Below, in pieces: positions 8,417-32,344 of a DNA stretch of 64,000 nucleotides; the first letter of the stretch is position 1, and each line of letters begins with the position of its first letter. Source of the stretch: Phycisphaerae bacterium (GTDB lineage: Bacteria; Planctomycetota; Phycisphaerae; SM23-33); NCBI GenBank assembly GCA_018335035.1, contig JAGXKT010000009.1, positions 1 through 64,000 on the forward strand, written 5' to 3'. The notes under the pieces were generated by a model. It was not told where the DNA came from, searched no databases, and saw only the letters and a list, made by a program, of their open reading frames with translations. The position numbers were made by a program, and so were the translations under genes.

Positions 8417-10939
8417 GTGGATTCCTTCACGCTGAACAAGATCGAGTTCGACGCTGTCCGGGAAATCCTCTCGGGCTACGCCCTGACTGCGCCGGGCCGG
8501 GCTCTCGCCCGGCGGATCCGCCCGTCCCGCAATCCCGAAACCGTTCGTCGTTGGCTGGAGCAGACCTCACAGATGGTCACGGCGATCCGCGACGTGGGGC
8601 TGCCCCCCATGGCGGGGGCTACGGACATCTCGGAGGCCCTGTCGCGCGCCGCGCCCGGCGGGGGGGGCGGCGGGGAGGACTTCGCCGCCATTGCCGCGGC
8701 ATTGCGCGCCGCGGGCAACGTTCGGGCGTATCTCGAACGGCTGCCCGAGGCGCTCGGCGCGCTGCAATCGCTGGCCGGACAGATCAGCCGCTTTGACGGC
8801 GAATGCAAGGCGATCGCGGCCGTCATCGACGCCGGCGGCGCCGTGCGGGACGACGCGTCTGATCGCCTCGCCGAACTGCGGCGCAGCATTGCCCGAACGA
8901 CACAGGAGGTGCACGACGTCATCTACGGCTACCTGCGAACGCCCGAGGTGACCAAGCTGCTCCAGCAGCCGACCGTCACGCTGCACGGGGACCGCTACGT
9001 GCTGCCGGTGCGTGCCGACAACCGTGGGCGGCTGCCGGGCGTGGTGCATCGCGAGTCGAATACGGGCGCGACCGTGTTCGTCGAGCCCACCGCCAGCGTC
9101 GAGCTGAACAACCGCCTGGCGGACCTGCGCAGCGACGAACGCCAGGAGGTCGAGCGCCTGCTGCACGGCCTGGCGGTACGGCTGCATCCGCGACACGAGG
9201 AGATCGATGCGACGATGCGCGCCGTGGCGCGCGTTGATCTCCTCGCGGCGAAGGCGCAGTACGCATATCAGCAGACCATGACGTGCCCGGAAATCTGCGA
9301 ACGCGGTTCGCTGGAGATGGCGCAGATACGGCATCCGCTGCTTCTGGCGTCGGCCACCCAACGTGACCGCGACGAGGACGCCGCCGCCGAGGCGGTCGTC
9401 CCGATCGACGTGCGCCTGGGCGACGATTTCGATCTGCTCGTCATTACCGGCCCGAATACGGGCGGCAAGACGGTGGCACTGAAATCGGTGGCGCTGCTGG
9501 TGGTGATGGCCCAGAGTGGCATGCACATTCCCGCCCGACGGGGGGCGCGCCTTCCGGTGTTTCGCGACGTGTTCATCGACGTCGGAGACGAGCAATCACT
9601 CCAGCAGTCACTCAGCACATTCGGCGCCCACATCAAGCGCATTCGCCACATTCTCGACAAATGCGGCAAGGCGTCGCTGGTGCTGCTGGACGAACTGGGC
9701 GCCGGGACGGACCCGGACGAGGGCGGCGCCATCGGGCAGGCGATTCTCGACGAGTTAGGCCGGCGGGGAGCCCTGGGCATGGTCACCACCCACTTGAGCG
9801 TGCTGAAGGCCTACGCGATGACGCACGAGCGCGTCGACAACGCGTCCGTTGAGTTTGACACGCGGTCGCTTCGCCCGACCTATCACCTGCGTATCGGCAC
9901 GCCGGGCGAAAGCCACGCGATCACCGTCGCCCGGCGGCTCGGGCTGGCCAAACGCATCGTCGACGCCGCTGAGCGGCATCGCGACGGGCAGAACCGCCAG
10001 TTTCGCAAGGCCCTGCGCGCCACGGGTGAGGCGCGGCAACTGGCGGAGCGCGCGCGGGCCGATGCGACAGAAGCGCGGCTTGCCGCCGAAGGCGACCAGG
10101 AGGTCTACCAATCGAAGCTGGCCGAACTGCATCGGCTTCAGGAAGAGTTCGACACGTGGCTGGCGACGCTGCCCGACTGGCAACCGGGCGACGAGATCTA
10201 CGTGCCGTCGTTGGGACGCACCGGACGCCTCGTGCGCCTGGAGCTTCATAAGCAGGTCGCCGTTCTGGACGCCGGGCACGCGCAGATCGAGGTCCCCCTG
10301 CGCGAGTTGATGCCGGACCTCGGTCAATCGCGCGTGCGAGAGGAAATCGCAACGCTGCGACAGCAGGTGATCGACCAGGCGCGCCAGACCAAGCAGGCCC
10401 GCGCCCAAGCCGAACGGATGCGGAAGGAATATCACGAGAGCTTGAAGCGCCAGCAAACCCGCGCCCGGCAGTTTGATGCCTGGCTGGGCCGCGTGGCGCG
10501 AATGCGCACCGGCGACGAAGTCCCCATCACGCGCAAGCCGGGCCGCGGTACGCTGAAGACCGTCGATCTGCCGGCCCTGAAGGCCACCGTCGCAACGCCC
10601 GAGGGGACCCTCGAACTGTCGCTCCAGGACCTGTTCCCCCAGACTGGTCCGTTTGCCCCGTCGCACGAGCGGAAGCATCGCACCGGCCGGTCGAGGGCCC
10701 GCCGCCGATCGGACCGCGGCAATCGGCCCGTCAAACACCGTCGCCCGGACAGCAAGGCCGCCCGCGCCAGCCGCGAGGCCCTGCGACGCGCCGAGCCCGG
10801 CAGCGAGGTCTACGTCGTGCCGTTCGGCAAGCGGGCAACGCTCGTCCGCGTCGAACCGGACAGGGACCAGGCCGTCGTGCAGAGCGGCGTGTTCGAGATG
10901 ACCATCGGGCTGGCTGATCTTGAACCAGTAAACCGCTAA
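8417..10939 (+). CDS. mutS2: MutS2 family ATPase lacking the Smr domain
   Basis: The 840-residue protein begins like MutS2 (residues 1-30 with KIEFDAVREILSGYA) and has the MutS core and ATPase domains: Walker A TGPNTGGKTVALKSVAL near residue 344, and Walker B with signature LVLLDELGAGTDPDEGG near 421. A coiled coil of about 510-580 follows. Known MutS2 proteins (about 780 residues) end in an Smr nuclease domain and have one KOW-like module. Here the C terminus has three KOW-like modules (near residues 591, 695 and 793; GDEIYVPSLGRTGRLVRLEL, GDEVPITRKPGRGTLKTV, GSEVYVVPFGKRATLVRVE), joined by a very basic linker, and no LDLRG or HGxGxG sequence. MutS2 acts in resolving collided ribosomes or suppressing recombination. 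The GTG start fits the family. Confidence 0.92.
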   Translation: MDSFTLNKIEFDAVREILSGYALTAPGRALARRIRPSRNPETVRRWLEQTSQMVTAIRDVGLPPMAGATDISEALSRAAPGGGGGGEDFAAIAAALRAAGNVRAYLERLPEALGALQSLAGQISRFDGECKAIAAVIDAGGAVRDDASDRLAELRRSIARTTQEVHDVIYGYLRTPEVTKLLQQPTVTLHGDRYVLPVRADNRGRLPGVVHRESNTGATVFVEPTASVELNNRLADLRSDERQEVERLLHGLAVRLHPRHEEIDATMRAVARVDLLAAKAQYAYQQTMTCPEICERGSLEMAQIRHPLLLASATQRDRDEDAAAEAVVPIDVRLGDDFDLLVITGPNTGGKTVALKSVALLVVMAQSGMHIPARRGARLPVFRDVFIDVGDEQSLQQSLSTFGAHIKRIRHILDKCGKASLVLLDELGAGTDPDEGGAIGQAILDELGRRGALGMVTTHLSVLKAYAMTHERVDNASVEFDTRSLRPTYHLRIGTPGESHAITVARRLGLAKRIVDAAERHRDGQNRQFRKALRATGEARQLAERARADATEARLAAEGDQEVYQSKLAELHRLQEEFDTWLATLPDWQPGDEIYVPSLGRTGRLVRLELHKQVAVLDAGHAQIEVPLRELMPDLGQSRVREEIATLRQQVIDQARQTKQARAQAERMRKEYHESLKRQQTRARQFDAWLGRVARMRTGDEVPITRKPGRGTLKTVDLPALKATVATPEGTLELSLQDLFPQTGPFAPSHERKHRTGRSRARRRSDRGNRPVKHRRPDSKAARASREALRRAEPGSEVYVVPFGKRATLVRVEPDRDQAVVQSGVFEMTIGLADLEPVNR

Positions 10940-24940: not shown

Positions 24941-26191
24941 ATGCGGCTGATTCTCTGCGACGTGGACGCAGAAGCGCGAGCCGGACTGGCGCCGCTGGCG
25001 CTGTCGCGGCCGATCTGGCAGTTGCGAAGCGGGATGACCACGCTGGGCCGGCGCCTCGCGGCGCACCTCGGCAGTGCTGACGTAGCCGGCTTCGTCCCGG
25101 CGCATCTGGCACCGGCCGCCGCCCACGACGGCGACTGGCCGGTCAACGATCCCGGGACGCTGTCCGGCGACGATCTGCTGATCGTCGATGCGCGCCTTAA
25201 GCCGGCGGGGCTGGACATCACGTTCGACGGGTCCAGCGAAATCGCCCACGACAGCGAGGGGCGTTTCGTCTACGCGCGCATCGCCCGCGACGATTTGGCA
25301 CGCCTCGAGACCGATTCGCTGGAGGCGCTGCTGGCCTCGGCGGGTGCGGCTCTGCCGGCCGTGTGTAAGGACCCCCCGCGGTGGCGCCACGCCTGGGAGT
25401 TGATGAGCGATAATGCAGAGCAGATCACCGCGGATTTCCATGCAGTGGGACGCAGCGGCGTCGCCTCGTCCGGCGAGCCGCCGATCCTCGTTGGCGACGA
25501 ACGCGATGTCTACGTCGCGCCGGATGCGACGATCGGTCCGAGGGTAGTCGTCGATGTATCGAACGGCCCGGTGTATGTTGATTCCGCGGCCGAGATTCAG
25601 CCGTTTACTCATATCGCCGGTCCGTGCTACGTCGGCGCCGGAAGTGTGCTGCTTGGCGCCAAATGCCGCGGCGGGACGACGGTCGGTCCGCAATGTCGCG
25701 TCGGGGGCGAGGTCGAGCAGGTGATCTTCCAGGGACACGCGAACAAGTATCATGACGGCTTTCTCGGGCATGCCGTCGTGGGCGCCTGGGTCAATCTCGG
25801 CGCCGGGACGACGAACAGCGACCTGCGCAACGACTACGCGCCCGTTCGCGTCTGTCTCGACGGGCACACGCTTGTCGAGACGGGATGCCTCAAGGTCGGC
25901 GCGCTGATCGGAGACCACTGCCGAAGTTCCATCGGCACGCTGCTCAACACGGGCACGTGCGTCGGGCCGATGACAATGCTGGTCGGCGGCGGGGGGCTGC
26001 TGCCGAGGTTCGTGCCGGCCTTCAGCGTGTGCGCCGGCAGTGAGATTGCCGAGACGTTCTCGCGCCGGCGTTTCTATGACATTGCGGCGCGGGCCCTTCC
26101 GCGGCGAGGACAGCAGTGGACTGAGGCCGACGAACGCATGTGGGACGCGATCTACGAGCAGACGGCCGAGCAGCGGGCTTACTCGACCTAG
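24941..26191 (+). CDS. GlmU-like sugar nucleotidyltransferase/acyltransferase
   Basis: The 416-residue protein combines a degenerate nucleotidyltransferase-like N terminus (MRLILCDVDAEARAGLAPLA, SRPIWQLRSGMTTLGRRLAAH) with a left-handed beta-helix of hexapeptide repeats (about 185-380; YVAPDATIGPRVVVD, FTHIAGPCYVGAGSVLLGA, VVGAWVNLGAGTTNSDLRND). This is the alternative GlmU type found in Bacteroidetes and planctomycetes, likely to supply UDP-N-acetylglucosamine. The LGAGTTNSDLRNDY segment is the acetyl-CoA-binding region of GlmU. AGGGAGG precedes ATG 24941. Its stop overlaps the convergent HAD gene by 4 bp. Confidence 0.85.
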   Translation: MRLILCDVDAEARAGLAPLALSRPIWQLRSGMTTLGRRLAAHLGSADVAGFVPAHLAPAAAHDGDWPVNDPGTLSGDDLLIVDARLKPAGLDITFDGSSEIAHDSEGRFVYARIARDDLARLETDSLEALLASAGAALPAVCKDPPRWRHAWELMSDNAEQITADFHAVGRSGVASSGEPPILVGDERDVYVAPDATIGPRVVVDVSNGPVYVDSAAEIQPFTHIAGPCYVGAGSVLLGAKCRGGTTVGPQCRVGGEVEQVIFQGHANKYHDGFLGHAVVGAWVNLGAGTTNSDLRNDYAPVRVCLDGHTLVETGCLKVGALIGDHCRSSIGTLLNTGTCVGPMTMLVGGGGLLPRFVPAFSVCAGSEIAETFSRRRFYDIAARALPRRGQQWTEADERMWDAIYEQTAEQRAYST

Positions 26192-26925
26192 CGCCTCTCG
26201 TACAGCGCGGCGCGAATCCCGCCGGGGTCGTACGCGGCAACCTGGGGCTCGCCGCCGCTCGGCGCGGGGTTCGCGGCATGGAGTTGCCCCGCGCGGAGAC
26301 TCTGCACGGTGCGCCACCCGAGTTCATTTGGCGCAAGGAAGTCCTTCGCGGGGTTATCGGCAACGTAGGCACATCGCCCGTGCGCTGTGTCGAGCAGAGA
26401 TGCGATACGCTCGAATCCCGCCTTGGCCGGTTTCCAGGCGTCACGCCCGAGGGCCTCGGTGAACACGATCGCGTCGAAGAAGCGGCCAAGCTTCAGGGCG
26501 TCGAGTTTGCGCTGCTGGCCCGGCAGATATCCGTCCGAAAGCAACCCGAGCGCGTGACGGCTTCGCAGCCGCCCCAGCAGTTCCACCATGTCCGCCCAGG
26601 GGCGGATTGCCGGCTGATGGCTACGGTAGACGTTCACGAGTTCGGCGATCTGTTCTTGCGTCAGTTGCAGGCCGAACGCGGCGCTAAGGGCGCCGAACGC
26701 GTCTTGCGTTTGCCCGCCAAGAAATCGCTTCCAGAGCCAGTTCGCCCAGCGGCGGGGCGATTCGCTTTCGCCGCGTTGGCGGGCCAGTGCGGCGGCCGCA
26801 GCACCATACCCGCTGCGCACGTACTGCCGTTCCGGATACAGCGTATCGTCGAGATCGAAGACGACGACGTGGATGGTGCACGAGGCGGGCATTTCAGCGG
26901 GCTCATCGGAATTGAGGCGAGTCAT
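26188..26925 (-). CDS. HAD-family phosphatase
   Basis: The 245-residue protein has the HAD motifs: nucleophile DLDDTLYPE near residue 23, LLSDG (motif II) near 127, Lys in DAWKPAKAGF (motif III), and YVADNPAKDF (motif IV). A helical cap lies between motifs I and II. It starts inside the end of the ATP-grasp gene (23 bp overlap), so the two are coupled. In this setting it may remove a phosphate from a sugar or aminosugar intermediate; the substrate is not shown by sequence. Confidence 0.88.
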   Translation of the reverse strand: MTRLNSDEPAEMPASCTIHVVVFDLDDTLYPERQYVRSGYGAAAAALARQRGESESPRRWANWLWKRFLGGQTQDAFGALSAAFGLQLTQEQIAELVNVYRSHQPAIRPWADMVELLGRLRSRHALGLLSDGYLPGQQRKLDALKLGRFFDAIVFTEALGRDAWKPAKAGFERIASLLDTAHGRCAYVADNPAKDFLAPNELGWRTVQSLRAGQLHAANPAPSGGEPQVAAYDPGGIRAALYERR

Positions 26926-27907
26926 AGCCGGGCAGGGCGGTCACGTCGTCAATTTGGGTATAGACGGCCTCGTCGTATCGCATCATCAGAAGCCGGTCCG
27001 TGAACGCGCCGATCTGAGCGCTTACGTCCATTCCAAGCACCTCCTGAATAACGTACAGGGGCAGGTTGGCGCCGGCGGCGATGGCCAGCGGCGCTCCGCC
27101 GCCGAAGCGCGGGTTAACCTCGAAATACCGCGGCGGTCCGCCGTCCGTGCGGCGGCACTGACAACAGAAGACACCCCATATGCCGTTGAGCTGCCCGGCG
27201 AGCTTCGCCGCCGTCTCCATTAATTCCCTGTCCTTGACGGTGATGCCCTTTTCCACCTCGCCGCTACGAACCACGAGCCGCTGGCGAGGCACGACGCAGC
27301 GAACCTCGCCGTCTCGCGTGCGATACACGTCCACCGTGTACTCGCGTCCGGGCACGTAGTCCTGAACGATCAGAAGCTCTCCGAACGTGGCGACATGGGC
27401 GTTGAGATCCCTTTCGTTGTGGATCACGGCGCTGCCGACACTCGCCGATCCGCGAATCGGTTTCACGAAACACGGATAGAACGGTCGGCGTCGAAAGGCG
27501 TGCAGCGACACGGTGCGGATCGTCTCGAGCCCGGCCTGCTGGAGGTGCTCGTTCAGTCGCGTCTTGTCTCGGCAGAGCAGGACGGCGTCCTCGCTGCCGA
27601 GCATCGGGGCGCAACCGAGTTCAACGAACTGCTGCGCCTGGCGCGCGATACTGCGCAAATCGAGGTCCGTCAAAGGGACCAGGAGTCCAATATTGCGCTT
27701 CTTGACGATGTCCAGCAGCGTGGGAACGTACTCAATCCGCCCGGCCATCGGTACCAGAATGCCCTCGTCGGCGCGGTGAAAGGCCGGTGATGCTGTCGTG
27801 ATGTCCGTAGCGATGATACGCCCGCGGACGCCCAGTTTGTCCATGGCGTGACGAAATGCGTCCATTAACTGAACGCGCCGTCCGACGCACGTCGTCAGAA
27901 TGTTCAG
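26903..27907 (-). CDS. ATP-grasp enzyme, CarB-like; non-standard start
   Basis: From the CTG at 27907 the product is 334 residues: a Rossmann-like N terminus (NILTTCVGRRVQLMDAFRHA), then an ATP-grasp fold with PCFVKPIRGSASVGSAVI near residue 125, the stretch LIVQDYVPGREYTVDVY, and FEVNPRFGGGAPLAIAAGAN carrying the Mg-binding Glu and Asn. Relatives in polysaccharide clusters join an amino or carboxyl group to a sugar-linked substrate. No ATG, GTG or TTG opens the frame between the previous gene and 27865, where an ATG would remove the conserved first strand. The frame follows the sugar-transferase stop by 1 bp, so a rare start or coupled re-initiation is likely. Confidence 0.8.
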   Translation of the reverse strand: MNILTTCVGRRVQLMDAFRHAMDKLGVRGRIIATDITTASPAFHRADEGILVPMAGRIEYVPTLLDIVKKRNIGLLVPLTDLDLRSIARQAQQFVELGCAPMLGSEDAVLLCRDKTRLNEHLQQAGLETIRTVSLHAFRRRPFYPCFVKPIRGSASVGSAVIHNERDLNAHVATFGELLIVQDYVPGREYTVDVYRTRDGEVRCVVPRQRLVVRSGEVEKGITVKDRELMETAAKLAGQLNGIWGVFCCQCRRTDGGPPRYFEVNPRFGGGAPLAIAAGANLPLYVIQEVLGMDVSAQIGAFTDRLLMMRYDEAVYTQIDDVTALPGYDSPQFR

Positions 27908-27908
27908 T

Positions 27909-28583
27909 TCACGCTTGGCGATCGCTTGATGGTCCTTCGGCGTTGCGAGGCGTGCTGATGCCGGGCGACTCGCCGCTGGCGCCCGCGTCGTGTTCGTACG
28001 CGCTGTGGCGGCTGTAGGTCTTCTCGTAGACGCCTCCGCGCCCGCTAACGCCATTCCACAGCGTGCGACCGATAATTCGCAAATCGAACCATATCCCCAT
28101 CTTGTTGATGTACTCCAGGTCCATCTCGATCTTGTCTTCGATGGGCAACTCACCACGCCCATACGCTTGGGCATAGCCCGTGATGCCCGGACGTACGTCT
28201 AGCCGATGCCTCTGGCGGTCGTCCCAGCGGGCGGCCTGGCGCTCGTACAACGGGCGCGGACCCACCAGCGACATCTGCCCGGCCAGGACATTGAGCAGTT
28301 GAGGCAGCTCGTCCAGGCTCGTCTCGCGCAGCAAGCGGCCGAGGCGGGTCAGGCGGTGGTCGTGCTGCGAGTGCGGCGAGGGGCCGTAGGGGGCCGCGTC
28401 ACTACGCATCGTGCGGTACTTCAATATGGTAAACGCCTTGCCTCGCCGGCCCGCGCGGCGCTGGCGAAACAATGCCGGGCCGCGCGATTCCAGACGAATC
28501 GCAAGCGCGATCAACAGCATCGGCCCGGCCAGCAGCGCCAGGGCTACACTTGCTGCAATGATGTCCGTCAGCCGCTTGACCAT
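27909..28583 (-). CDS. Priming sugar transferase (undecaprenyl-phosphate glycosyl-1-phosphate transferase)
   Basis: The 224-residue protein is a short PglC/WcaJ-type phosphoglycosyltransferase. It has one N-terminal membrane hairpin (VALALLAGPMLLIALAIRL) and the catalytic core: FTILKYRTMRSDA, LTRLGRLLRETSLDELPQLL with the Asp-Glu pair, and MSLVGPRPLYERQ followed by RPGITGYAQAYGRGE. It starts glycan synthesis by moving a sugar 1-phosphate onto undecaprenyl phosphate. It is followed directly by the ATP-grasp gene and preceded after 48 bp by an epimerase, giving a compact glycan operon. Confidence 0.93.
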   Translation of the reverse strand: MVKRLTDIIAASVALALLAGPMLLIALAIRLESRGPALFRQRRAGRRGKAFTILKYRTMRSDAAPYGPSPHSQHDHRLTRLGRLLRETSLDELPQLLNVLAGQMSLVGPRPLYERQAARWDDRQRHRLDVRPGITGYAQAYGRGELPIEDKIEMDLEYINKMGIWFDLRIIGRTLWNGVSGRGGVYEKTYSRHSAYEHDAGASGESPGISTPRNAEGPSSDRQA

Positions 28584-28631
28584 CTGACGTGTCTCGCCGG
28601 GAACCGCAACACAACGGGCAACGCCGGGCCG

Positions 28632-29576
28632 CTAGGCGAGATTCTCGCAATACCAGTCAATTGCCTTGGTCAGCCCTTCGTCGAAGTAGGCGACCGGTGC
28701 ATATCCTAGTATACCATGGGCCCGTGAGATGTCAGCCAGTGAATGCCGCACATCGCCGGGACGGGCATCGGCGTATCGGGCGCCAACATCCATATCGAGA
28801 AGCGCCCGCAACCGCTCGAGAATCGCGTTGAGGGTCGTGCTCGCCTGACAGGCAATGTTGACCGGGCGACCGTCGCACACCTCGCCTGGGGCGTTGGCCG
28901 CCAACCAGTTGGCCTCGCAGACGTTATCGACATAGCAGAAGTCGCGGCTCTGTTCGCCGTCGCCGTAGACGGTTGGCGGCTCGCCGCGAAGCATCCGGCT
29001 GATGAAGGCGGGAATTACGGCCGCATAGGGACCTTGCGGGTCCTGATACGGACCAAAGACGTTGAAGTACCGCAGCGAGAGGGTCTCCATACCGTACACG
29101 GCCGCGTAGCCCTGCATGTAGGCCTCGCCGGCGAGCTTGCTCGCGGCGTACGGGCTGATCGGGCGGGGGACCATGCCCTCGTGCTTTGGCGATTCCCGCT
29201 GGTCGCCGTAGGCGCTGGACGAGGCGGCAAAGATTACGCGCCGGACATCGGCCGCCCGCGCCGCCTCCAGCACAACGATGGTTCCGTTGACGTTGACCTC
29301 GTGACTGGTAACGGGGTCTGCGACGCTGCGCGGCACGGAGCCGAGGGCGGCCTCGTGAAAGACCGCCGCACAGCCGTCGACCGCGCGGTCGACGGCCGGG
29401 CGGTCTCGAACATCAGCGGTTACAAGGTCGATGTCGTCGATGAGGTCGGCGAGGTTCTCGCGCTTGCCGGTGGCGAAATTGTCCAGGACGACAACCTCAT
29501 GGCCCCTTGTCAGAAGGAAACGCACCAGGTTGCAGCCAATGAAGCCGGCACCGCCTGTGACAAGATACTTGCTCAT
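28632..29576 (-). CDS. NAD-dependent sugar epimerase, WbpP-like
   Basis: The 314-residue extended short-chain dehydrogenase has the NAD loop TGGAGFIGCNL near residue 7, the SSSAYG active-site serine region near 125, and the catalytic YAASK near 152 (PYAASKLAGEAYMQGYAAVY). The overall pattern is closest to UDP-N-acetylglucosamine 4-epimerases of the WbpP/VipB kind. ATG 29576 overlaps the preceding gene by 4 bp (ATGA), so it is coupled to it. The exact sugar is uncertain. Confidence 0.88.
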   Translation of the reverse strand: MSKYLVTGGAGFIGCNLVRFLLTRGHEVVVLDNFATGKRENLADLIDDIDLVTADVRDRPAVDRAVDGCAAVFHEAALGSVPRSVADPVTSHEVNVNGTIVVLEAARAADVRRVIFAASSSAYGDQRESPKHEGMVPRPISPYAASKLAGEAYMQGYAAVYGMETLSLRYFNVFGPYQDPQGPYAAVIPAFISRMLRGEPPTVYGDGEQSRDFCYVDNVCEANWLAANAPGEVCDGRPVNIACQASTTLNAILERLRALLDMDVGARYADARPGDVRHSLADISRAHGILGYAPVAYFDEGLTKAIDWYCENLA

Positions 29577-30577
29577 GGTCTCCGTTCGCTCCGGTCTTGC
29601 TGCGCTGTCGCTGCCTGCCCACATGCGTGGGCAATAACCGCTTCCAACGTCTTCCTCAACGTATACGTCGGCTCATAGCCGGTCAGAGCCCTGATCTTTT
29701 TCAAATCCGGCGCGCGGACCTGCATATCCTCGATCCACCGCCCGTAGGCCTGTTCGTAGCTGATGGCACGAATGTCCGAACGGCTGCCGGTCATCTCGAC
29801 GATGCACTCGGCGAGTTGTCGGATGGAGACGGACTCGTCGCTTCCCACGTTGACGACTTGCCCGACGGCCTCCGGGCACGATGCCAACAGCAGCAAAGCC
29901 CGCACCGTGTCAGCCACGTGACAGAAGCATCGCGTCTGTCGACCCGTGCCGTAGACCTCCAGCGGCGCATCGTCCAGCGCCTGACGGATGAACCGCGGCA
30001 CGACCATCCCGTAGCGCCCCTGTTGCCGCGGACCGATCGTGTTAAACAGGCGGCAGATCACCACAGGGAGGTCCCGTTGCTGGTGGTACGCCAGCGCGAG
30101 GAACTCATCCGTCAGCTTGCTGCACGCATAGCTCCACCGCATCGACTGCGTGGAGCCGAGCGTCGTGTCGTCGCCCTCGGCGAAGGGCGGCCGGTTGTTC
30201 TTGCCGTATACCTCCGAGGTCGAAGCCACGATGACGGTGCGCCCGTGGCGGGCGGCCTCAGCCAGAACCGTCTCGGTACCGTTGACGTTCGTCTTGATTG
30301 TGTGGATGGGGCACTCGGCGATCAGGCGGACGCCGACGGCCGCGGCGAGGTGAAAGACGACCTCGCAACGGTCCACGAGCGGCGCGACGACCCCCTGGTC
30401 GCACACGTCGCCTTCGACGAGCTCGAAGTCGCTGCGGCCCGCCAGGGCGGCGAGGTTCGCCCGGGATCCGGTTGACAGATCGTCCAACACGACGACGCGG
30501 CTGGCCCGGGCGTCGAGGATCGCCTCGGCCAGGTGCGAGCCGATGAAGCCGGCGCCGCCTGTGATTAGTGCGTTCAT
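29573..30577 (-). CDS. NAD-dependent sugar epimerase/dehydratase
   Basis: The 334-residue protein is another extended short-chain dehydrogenase: ITGGAGFIGSHL at the N terminus, HLAAAVGVRLI, ASTSEVYGKNN near residue 125, catalytic YACSK near 155 (WSYACSKLTDEFLALAYHQQ), and RLFNTIGPRQQGRYGMV. The TSEVYG and NTIGPRQ patterns are shared with UDP-glucuronate decarboxylases and GDP- or UDP-sugar dehydratases. The two epimerases are not close copies. It is the first gene of the overlapping run epimerase-epimerase-sugar transferase-ATP-grasp-HAD. Confidence 0.85.
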   Translation of the reverse strand: MNALITGGAGFIGSHLAEAILDARASRVVVLDDLSTGSRANLAALAGRSDFELVEGDVCDQGVVAPLVDRCEVVFHLAAAVGVRLIAECPIHTIKTNVNGTETVLAEAARHGRTVIVASTSEVYGKNNRPPFAEGDDTTLGSTQSMRWSYACSKLTDEFLALAYHQQRDLPVVICRLFNTIGPRQQGRYGMVVPRFIRQALDDAPLEVYGTGRQTRCFCHVADTVRALLLLASCPEAVGQVVNVGSDESVSIRQLAECIVEMTGSRSDIRAISYEQAYGRWIEDMQVRAPDLKKIRALTGYEPTYTLRKTLEAVIAHACGQAATAQQDRSERRP

Positions 30578-30694: not shown

Positions 30695-32344
30695 CTAGTG
30701 CGGCTGTGACGTCTCCGTGTAGATTTCGGCCTGCTCGACGAGACGCCGGTAGAACGCCTCGCCGCCGAGTGCCACGCACCAGGGCAGAATGGCGCCGCGG
30801 GAGTCCCAGTAGTCCAACTCGGCGAGTTGCGTATCGGCGTCGATGCGCCGCAGCGTACGCTCGGTCAGCTTGGCTTCAAGCGACGTAATTTGATGCGAGA
30901 CCTCGCGGATCCGTGGCTGCTTTGGGTCCTCTTGTGCCAGTCGCCGGCGGAGCGTGTCCAGCGAGGCGATGTCTTCGACGATCTCGCCGCAGGCCTCCCG
31001 CTGCCAGGCACATCGCCCGTCCTCGCTTCGGAATGCGTCCAGTCGGCTCCGGGCCTCGTCGGCTGCGTCGCGCCAATGGGCGGCGAGGCCGGCCGCGGGA
31101 ACCGCATCCTGCCCGAACCACTGCGCGAGATGCTCCGGAAGACGAACGGGCGTTTCCAGTTCGCCGAGCCGATCCAGAAGCCGCAGACGGACTCGCAGGA
31201 CCGGCGCCAGCCGTTCGGGCAGCAACTCGTCGGCCACGGACGAGACACCCCGGCGAGCGAGCAGCTTCTCGCCCAGGCGGTGTGAGGCGGGCATGTAAAG
31301 CGAGCCGCGGTAAGGCAGCGCCAGCGGTGCGCCGTCGGCGCCGAGGCGGGCCTGAATCGTCAACAGCACGGCCTTGCCGGCCAGGGCGACGACGCCCTCC
31401 TGCCGCAGCCGGCTGACGGGAAGGCGCCCGTCGGCCAGCGGGAAGCTCCGGTCGCCGATATGCAGCTTGCCGCCGGCGAGCGCCACGCCGCTTCGAACCT
31501 GATGCCCGCGATGGGTGAACACGGCGAACAGCGGCAGCTCGCCGGCCTCGACATCCAGGGGACGCAGCTCGGAATCGGTCTCGGCCAAGGCCTCGTTATA
31601 GAGCCGCGTGGCCTCGGCGTAGTCGCATACGAAGTAGTCCAGAAGGGCCGTCCGTTGGGCGTCGCCTCCGGTGGCGAACAGCGTCGAGGACCAGTCGAGT
31701 TGAACATGCTCATCCACCCAAGAAGCCAGCCAGTGACGATACACGTCCACCAGCCGCGCATCGGCGTGGCGTTCGAGCAGGCGTTCCAGGCGGTCCTGTT
31801 CGGCCGTAAACCACTGGACGGCTCGCTGCTGCGCGGCGGCATCGGCGAAGCGTCGCAGCGTATCGGCCTTGGCGAGGCGAACGAGACGCCGGCAGAAGTC
31901 CTCGACCTCCGCGACGGGCAGGTCCGCGATGGTGCGATGGTGTCGGCGGTCGGCGACATAGCTCGAACCGATGAGTTGCCAGTTATCGCCCGGGGAGAAT
32001 GCATCGTACAGATCATCCACGGACCGCCCGAGACGCTTTGCCAGCGCGCTGGTGGACATCCCGGTCAGCGGCTCCCACGTGCGGATGTCCACAGGCACGC
32101 GTCCGAGGAACTCCGAATAGAACAGCGCGGCGCCCCAGTCCGTGCCGCCGCTGTGGTGATATCGCTCCAGCGACAGCCGCAGATCGGGCGTGTCGACCTG
32201 TGCGCCGGGCGCCGAGAAGGCCATGTCCACGTCCTCGATCAGATGCCGGACGCGGTAGCCCTTGGCGCACAGAGCGTGCAGCTTGGGAACCACGTCCCAG
32301 AGGGGATGGCAGTTCTGGTCGATGCTTACGGCGGTGGGCGTCAT
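30695..32344 (-). CDS. Unrecognised 549-residue protein in glycan gene run
   Basis: The product has no signal peptide and no membrane helix, so it is probably cytoplasmic. The N terminus (SIDQNCHPLWDVVPKLHALC, RVRHLIEDVDMAFSAPGAQV) looks like a folded domain. The middle is helical (about 200-330), and residues about 330-400 contain strands (HRGHQVRSGVALAGGKLHIG). A long charged helical stretch with coiled-coil character ends the protein (about 430-530, SLDTLRRRLAQEDPKQ...). Codon use matches the neighbours. It sits 23 bp downstream of dapF and 117 bp upstream of the epimerases. I do not recognise the family. Confidence 0.75.
   Translation of the reverse strand: MTPTAVSIDQNCHPLWDVVPKLHALCAKGYRVRHLIEDVDMAFSAPGAQVDTPDLRLSLERYHHSGGTDWGAALFYSEFLGRVPVDIRTWEPLTGMSTSALAKRLGRSVDDLYDAFSPGDNWQLIGSSYVADRRHHRTIADLPVAEVEDFCRRLVRLAKADTLRRFADAAAQQRAVQWFTAEQDRLERLLERHADARLVDVYRHWLASWVDEHVQLDWSSTLFATGGDAQRTALLDYFVCDYAEATRLYNEALAETDSELRPLDVEAGELPLFAVFTHRGHQVRSGVALAGGKLHIGDRSFPLADGRLPVSRLRQEGVVALAGKAVLLTIQARLGADGAPLALPYRGSLYMPASHRLGEKLLARRGVSSVADELLPERLAPVLRVRLRLLDRLGELETPVRLPEHLAQWFGQDAVPAAGLAAHWRDAADEARSRLDAFRSEDGRCAWQREACGEIVEDIASLDTLRRRLAQEDPKQPRIREVSHQITSLEAKLTERTLRRIDADTQLAELDYWDSRGAILPWCVALGGEAFYRRLVEQAEIYTETSQPH

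Follow-up and report, generated by a model that had tools for sequence, protein, structure and literature searches.

A conserved ATP-grasp and HAD gene pair in a planctomycete glycan-precursor block, with a possible role in N-acylation of the initiating sugar

What does a compact run of planctomycete genes make, and which group does the ATP-grasp ligase encoded in it attach to a sugar? The genes lie in a 64,000-nucleotide stretch of DNA (the window) at the start of contig JAGXKT010000009.1 of a Phycisphaerae assembly (GCA_018335035.1). The initial annotation of positions 24941-30577 described two epimerases, a priming sugar transferase, a CarB-like ATP-grasp enzyme and a HAD phosphatase facing a GlmU-like gene. 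It proposed that the ATP-grasp enzyme adds an amino, carbamoyl or peptide-like group, giving an undescribed modified sugar of a surface polymer. We identified all six genes there with Pfam and NCBIfam models, and the first five form a conserved unit. We consider it about evenly balanced whether this unit produces the first sugar of a polyprenyl-linked surface glycan and loads it onto the carrier, with the ATP-grasp enzyme N-acylating a 4-amino sugar and the HAD enzyme dephosphorylating. The six genes are:

29573-30577, minus strand: epA, a nucleotide-sugar enzyme of the short-chain dehydrogenase/reductase (SDR) family (Pfam Epimerase, 3e-54), nearest to UDP-glucuronate decarboxylase (UXS) and LegB-type dehydratases
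28632-29576, minus strand: epB, an SDR-family UDP-HexNAc(A) 4-epimerase, WbpP/WbgU/TviC-like (Pfam Epimerase, 1e-67)
27909-28583, minus strand: a small monotopic phosphoglycosyl transferase (PGT), PglC-like (Bac_transf, 2.5e-61)
26903 to about 27907, minus strand: an ATP-grasp ligase of the PRK12767 group with PylC-like_N and ATPgrasp_Ter (Pfam/NCBIfam), a proposed N-acyl ligase; its start is uncertain
26188-26892, minus strand: a HAD-IA phosphatase (HAD/Hydrolase models) with motifs DxD, DG, K and GDNxxKDF
24941-26191, plus strand: an alternative GlmU (UDP-GlcNAc pyrophosphorylase/acetyltransferase; TIGR03991, 295 bits, cut-off 225)

The minus-strand genes (26188-30577) are transcribed in the order epA, epB, PGT, ATP-grasp, HAD. 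The epA and epB genes overlap by 4 bp, a gap of 48 bp separates epB from the PGT gene, the PGT and ATP-grasp genes abut, and 10 bp lie between the ATP-grasp and HAD genes. The HAD and glmU genes are convergent, and their tails overlap by 4 bp.

We searched 40 genomes as relatives, the window's own included, and found a match to the ATP-grasp protein in 28 at E 1e-20. Within the window's own family the match is present in 19 of 24 genomes, at an identity of at least 52%. The surroundings of 28 loci (20 close matches and 8 more distant ones) were compared by tblastn with the window genes and then by family models. The window's clade, defined from a tree of the ATP-grasp proteins, comprises 23 loci, and counts per clade were made partly by hand. 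The HAD gene follows the ATP-grasp gene in 21 of the 22 clade loci that have room for it. Looking upstream, a PGT gene is found no more than 600 bp away in 18 of 23 loci, and an SDR gene within about 4 kb likewise in 18 of 23. The five-gene order, which the initial annotation suggested looking for in other planctomycetes, recurs in full at six further loci (L030, L031, L040, L044, L045 and L059, the last without distinction between the two SDRs), and its recurrence places the arrangement beyond chance. The description as a compact, conserved glycan-precursor unit stands. Five other loci (L035, L036, L037, L039 and L041) have epB immediately before the ATP-grasp gene and no PGT gene.

GlmU was considered as part of the module and dropped: tblastn gave no match to it in the loci of 28 relatives, several of which end shortly after the HAD gene. 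Flanking gene clusters are common to at most 3 of 21 loci. Because the flanks vary and GlmU is matched in none, the block looks self-contained.

The ATP-grasp protein scores 281 bits against NF009405 (the PRK12767 group) across nearly its full length, below the cut-off of 390; judged by this score it is related to that family yet outside the strict model. By sequence, the sole strong solved relative is 2pn1 (1e-29). The predicted structure (pLDDT 92) superposes on 2pn1 with a Z score of 35.6 over 287 aligned residues at a root mean square deviation of 1.6, followed in the fold search by biotin carboxylase, carbamoyl phosphate synthetase and PurK. Fold neighbours of this breadth to a predicted model say nothing about substrate. 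Members of the PRK12767 family carry the name 'carbamoyl phosphate synthase-like', and 2pn1, to which the window protein is related in sequence and fold, is without a described function in the material examined. The carbamoyl group considered initially is not favoured, as the family label, from which 'CarB-like' derives, is the only pointer to it; fold and sequence indicate ATP-grasp enzymes generally.

An alignment of 21 relatives shows that lysines 122 and 156 are kept, along with most of the motif EINPRFGGG; from the fold, we take these to be the ATP-grasp catalytic residues. Several arginines are also invariant, which may fit an anionic substrate. The conserved N-terminus of the protein has no ATG, GTG or TTG codon (window 27860-27960), and where the family usually starts there is a CTG, at 27907, beside the PGT stop. 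This CTG is the likely start; the start called by the gene finder, 27865, would remove a conserved N-terminal motif. Among 11 relatives in which a motif search located the site (16 were tried), the codon preceding the conserved 'NIL' is TTG in 5, and CTG, ATT, ATC or CTT in the remainder.

In the HAD protein the motif residues, including the DxD nucleophile/acid pair, are invariant across 25 aligned sequences. A fold search placed it nearest to N-acetylneuraminate-9-phosphatase, a sugar-phosphate enzyme. The genome holds only 10 HAD_2 matches, so chance adjacency of an ATP-grasp and a HAD gene should be rare.

With 224 amino acids the PGT belongs to the short PglC kind, and among solved structures its best match is the N,N'-diacetylbacillosaminyl-1-phosphate transferase 8e37 (2e-33). 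The two SDR proteins each fall under the cut-off of their own best-scoring NCBIfam model. The naming of both as epimerases is loose. The best solved relatives of epB are 10ke and the UDP-GlcNAc 4-epimerases WbpP and WbgU, and it scores 235 bits (cut-off 760) against the model for TviC, a UDP-GlcNAcA C4-epimerase. For epA the nearest proteins are UXS and dehydratases of the LegB type: the best NCBIfam model is TIGR04180 (179 bits, cut-off 475) and the best solved relative is UDP-glucuronate decarboxylase 1 (1e-49).

To see the company kept by the pair more widely, we took the best 80 of at least 570 ATP-grasp relatives in named genomes, a set that leans to planctomycetes. A further sample of 345 genomes, judged to be Desulfobacterota from contigs common to the named loci, contained 36 with a match, of which 20 stretches were used. 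These were pooled with the loci fetched earlier from the relatives; after removal of 11 duplicates, 118 non-redundant loci remained, the window included. The commonest link is from ATP-grasp to HAD, with a HAD gene no more than 350 bp downstream in 64 of the 111 loci with room. This arrangement occurs in 19 of 20 window-like planctomycetes (at least 50% identity), in all 12 Bacillota, all 4 Cyanobacteria and the single acidobacterium, in 5 of 6 named Desulfobacterota and 9 of 17 in the sample, in 1 of 2 Myxococcota and in neither of 2 Riflebacteria; adjacency was also found in Alphaproteobacteria. Of the 118 loci, 62 have a PGT gene, monotopic or WecA-like, no farther than 4 kb away. Among planctomycetes below 50% identity, a WecA-like PGT gene stands directly downstream of the ATP-grasp gene in 19 of 52 loci. 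For genes of the DegT aminotransferase or CapD type, looked for within 6 kb, the figure is 45 of the 118, including 10 of 12 in Bacillota. On a FastTree tree of the 118 ATP-grasp proteins, which has many open forks and some long branches, the presence of HAD changes 13 times and that of the WecA-like neighbour 7 times (no shuffled control).

Several of these functions are joined in single proteins. ATP-grasp and HAD are fused at three loci (L132, L137 and L199, the last with a distant ATP-grasp domain), and in L132, from an uncultured Lachnospiraceae bacterium, genes for a dehydratase, a DegT aminotransferase, a PGT and the ATP-grasp-HAD protein stand in a row. A WecA-like PGT is fused to ATP-grasp in L106 (6891-9011), and an SDR is fused to ATP-grasp in L184. 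Of 135 matching records, we opened five annotated plasmid loci, and each has an aminotransferase or dehydratase gene. The Priestia plasmid encodes an aminotransferase, a sugar transferase, the ATP-grasp protein and HAD; the Palleronia plasmid a dehydratase and DegT, two other genes, then a formyltransferase, ATP-grasp and HAD; and the Ensifer plasmid a formyltransferase, ATP-grasp, HAD and a dehydratase. A Rickettsiales plasmid has an aminotransferase and, farther on, ATP-grasp and a short HAD; that of Segatella has a sugar transferase, ATP-grasp, two glycosyltransferase genes, HAD and an aminotransferase. The formyltransferase gene directly precedes the ATP-grasp-HAD pair in L216 and L218 (the Palleronia and Ensifer plasmids).

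Where might an amino sugar come from? The window's genome has two strong DegT genes. One, for a PseC/LegC-like aminotransferase on contig C52, lies beside a gene for a 685-amino-acid dehydratase and near a further gene; this contig is not linked to the window locus. Length, domain content and the opening residues lead us to regard the dehydratase as WbpM/PglF-like and the nearby gene as GlmS-like. Both the dehydratase and the DegT protein fall under the cut-offs of specific models. In another relative (G024), about 160 bp separate an orthologue of the DegT gene (68% identity) from a paralogue of the ATP-grasp gene, whose product shares 33% identity with the window's protein. A close ATP-grasp protein is encoded by 19 genomes of the family, the window's own included; DegT (some as fragments) and the dehydratase each occur in 18 of these. 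The PglD acetyltransferase is scarce in these genomes. The best match to TIGR03570 in the window's genome, a metagenome-assembled genome (MAG) that is 96.8% complete, reaches 51.5 bits against a cut-off of 160.8; PglD-type matches above 150 bits were found in 2 of the 19, one of them over the cut-off. Outside the family, 12 of 16 relatives have PglD over the cut-off.

A ligase and a phosphatase tied to first-sugar loading and, in other groups, to makers of amino sugars fit N-acylation of a 4-amino sugar nucleotide. We infer the following sequence of reactions. The dehydratase/aminotransferase pair of contig C52 would supply a UDP-4-amino-sugar. The ATP-grasp enzyme would activate a small carboxylic acid by forming its acyl phosphate, then link it to the free 4-amino group, so filling with ATP the role that PglD has with acetyl-CoA. 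The HAD enzyme could dephosphorylate the acyl group once it is ligated, if for example phosphoglycerate is used, or act beforehand to yield the free acid; the presence of a phosphatase hints at a phosphorylated acid, phosphoglycerate for instance, being used or freed. The PglC-like PGT would then transfer the sugar-1-phosphate to the polyprenyl carrier, and epA and epB would set the configuration of this sugar or the next. The more general claim of the initial annotation, that the ATP-grasp enzyme modifies a sugar, is probable.

Known systems, cited here from excerpts of the articles, provide partial parallels. The nearest documented case is PglB2 of Neisseria, likened here by its published description rather than by sequence. 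PglB2 is described as the ATP-grasp/phosphoglycosyl transferase responsible for the glyceramido-acetamido trideoxyhexose (GATDH) (PMC11130364), and its acyl transfer is termed 'proposed' (PMC6959607). As in the block considered here, a PGT is coupled to ATP-grasp; in Neisseria it works downstream of UDP-4-amino-sugar enzymes that start from UDP-GlcNAc (PMC11130364, PMC6959607). The genes pglB2 and the acetylating pglB are reported to be mutually exclusive, with pglB2 inserted together with ORF8 (PMC11130364), and a gene of unknown function is noted after pglB2 (PMC3338715). A figure of the pgl regions names a HAD hydrolase and a formyl transferase in N. oralis (PMC6959607). It is our guess that ORF8 is a HAD of this kind. 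The window differs in having separate PGT and ATP-grasp genes, a fixed adjoining HAD gene, two leading SDR genes, and the dehydratase and aminotransferase on another contig. Given an ATP-grasp/PGT protein tied in Neisseria to a trideoxy amino sugar that bears a glyceramido group (PglB2, PMC11130364), 'undescribed' was too strong a term for the modification, and by this analogy the chemistry of the block is probably not without precedent. The bacillosamine pathway (PglF-PglE-PglD-PglC) is likewise similar in the PglC-like PGT and the dehydratase and aminotransferase found in the genome, and differs in that an ATP-grasp ligase and HAD stand in place of a PglD over the cut-off.

Several observations weigh against N-acylation of an initiating 4-amino sugar. 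No DegT or CapD-type gene was recognized within 6 kb in any of 21 window-like loci, several of which are on contigs that end sooner, so that the evidence for an amino sugar comes from other groups and from a distant contig. DegT is found in 37 and the dehydratase in 35 of the 40 genomes, with or without this ATP-grasp protein. Of 21 window-like loci, 5 have no PGT gene beside the ATP-grasp gene, and HAD is downstream in just 13 of 47 planctomycetes below 50% identity. The neighbor counts are of loci rather than independent events, and the family models behind them derive from clusters of those very loci. Set against each other, ATP-grasp and PglD split the genomes as 4 of 21 versus 11 of 19 (Fisher p 0.02, from a table compiled by hand, at a threshold of 150 bits that we chose), a hint that mostly tracks family lines and is not independent evidence. 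Absences from a MAG are weak in any case. Nor is replacement of PglD universal, as one protein (L185, 8381-10003) fuses ATP-grasp to a PglD/NeuD acetyltransferase (TIGR03570, 217 bits, cut-off 161). Scattering of the genes, or unrelated contexts for the ATP-grasp gene, had been named at the outset as grounds for abandoning the idea of a module. Nothing of this sort is seen in the window's clade, but at six distant planctomycete loci (L068, L072, L075, L078, L079 and L087) the ATP-grasp/HAD pair lies beside a divergent cinA gene, followed in five by a gene for a 4Fe-4S protein. Among the neighbors, which were partly identified, a glycan gene was recognized at one of the six (L087, a WecA-like PGT gene 1.4 kb on).

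The first alternative, which we regard as unlikely, is formation of a uronamide. Here a nucleotide-sugar dehydrogenase and the TviC-like epB would produce a uronic acid. The ATP-grasp enzyme would couple its carboxylate to a phosphorylated amine, of the ethanolamine phosphate or serinol phosphate type, and HAD would remove the phosphate. Functional precedent exists in Campylobacter, where the ATP-grasp amidoligase Cj1438C and then the HAD phosphatase Cj1435 are described as acting in turn on a capsule sugar (PMC11800379). The top NCBIfam score of epB, under the cut-off, is also to TviC, and the window's genome does encode a nucleotide-sugar dehydrogenase (contig C27). However, 10 of 118 loci have such a dehydrogenase within 6 kb of the pair, compared with 45 that have DegT or CapD, and neither a decarboxylase of the Campylobacter kind nor an amine-supplying gene was recognized in the block. 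Cj1438C is moreover described as a TupA-like ATP-grasp, a different subgroup, fused to a glycosyltransferase and targeting a uronic acid of the growing chain (PMC11800379). In the window protein no Pfam match to TupA was found at E 1e-3; PylC-like_N and ATPgrasp_Ter were found instead.

The second alternative, aminoacylation, seems to us similarly improbable. The ATP-grasp enzyme would attach an amino acid (D-Ala, Gly or another) to an amino sugar, in the manner of D-Ala-D-Ala ligases and PylC, and the substrate of HAD would be a different, unrelated phospho-sugar in that pathway, for example at a Neu5Ac-9-P-like step. Pfam matches to the D-Ala-ligase C-terminal and PylC_N domains in the ATP-grasp protein are consistent with this, as are the phosphatase to which the HAD fold is nearest and NeuB genes near some of the pairs (L123, L130, L184 and L203). 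NeuB was recognized at few loci, however, and the three ATP-grasp-HAD fusions and the frequent adjacency (64/111) favor one shared step.

ATP-grasp and HAD genes also occur in Ter operons, for which a role in making a cofactor-like or nucleoside-like metabolite has been proposed. That the pair makes such a small metabolite and adjoins glycan genes in some lineages only is quite improbable: it would suit the ATPgrasp_Ter match and the cinA-linked loci, but PGT, DegT and dehydratase genes are recurrent neighbors in several phyla, fusions exist with PGT and PglD, and no Ter family was found among the neighbor clusters scanned (one representative each, from a subset of neighbors).

Beyond N-acylation in the window's own block, we suggest tentatively, and with less conviction, that the ATP-grasp/HAD pair is a phylum-spanning alternative to PglD. 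It would ligate a phosphorylated acid and strip the phosphate, placing non-acetyl N-acyl groups on the initiating sugars of a wide range of bacterial glycans; PglB2 would be an offshoot, and the planctomycete block a stripped-down form with its amino sugar supplied from elsewhere in the genome. Among titles and the beginnings of abstracts in the open-licence literature, we recognized no description of the ATP-grasp/HAD/PGT unit besides the Campylobacter paper, and as far as these searches showed the pair is widespread and has no assigned reaction. If the suggestion is correct, genes now labeled 'carbamoyl phosphate synthase-like' or 'ATP-grasp domain-containing' and 'HAD hydrolase' would gain a testable function, the loading of modified sugars onto a lipid carrier, in many phyla. 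Non-acetyl N-acyl sugars of capsules, exopolysaccharides and glycoproteins could be predicted from genomes, and there would be a concrete chemical prediction for the surface glycans of these planctomycetes.

Other genes near the block were considered as members and rejected. The genes for diaminopimelate epimerase (dapF), a 549-amino-acid protein and a PMT-type protein are unmatched in the loci of relatives. The 549-amino-acid protein (window 30695-32344), which adjoins dapF, was searched as a 583-amino-acid reading and drew no Pfam or NCBIfam match at E 1e-3. Finally, one genome has two more paralogues of the sugar transferase (L027, 9705-11147, and L028, near 9800-10580; identities of 47% and 44%), pointing to more than one surface-polymer locus in that genome.

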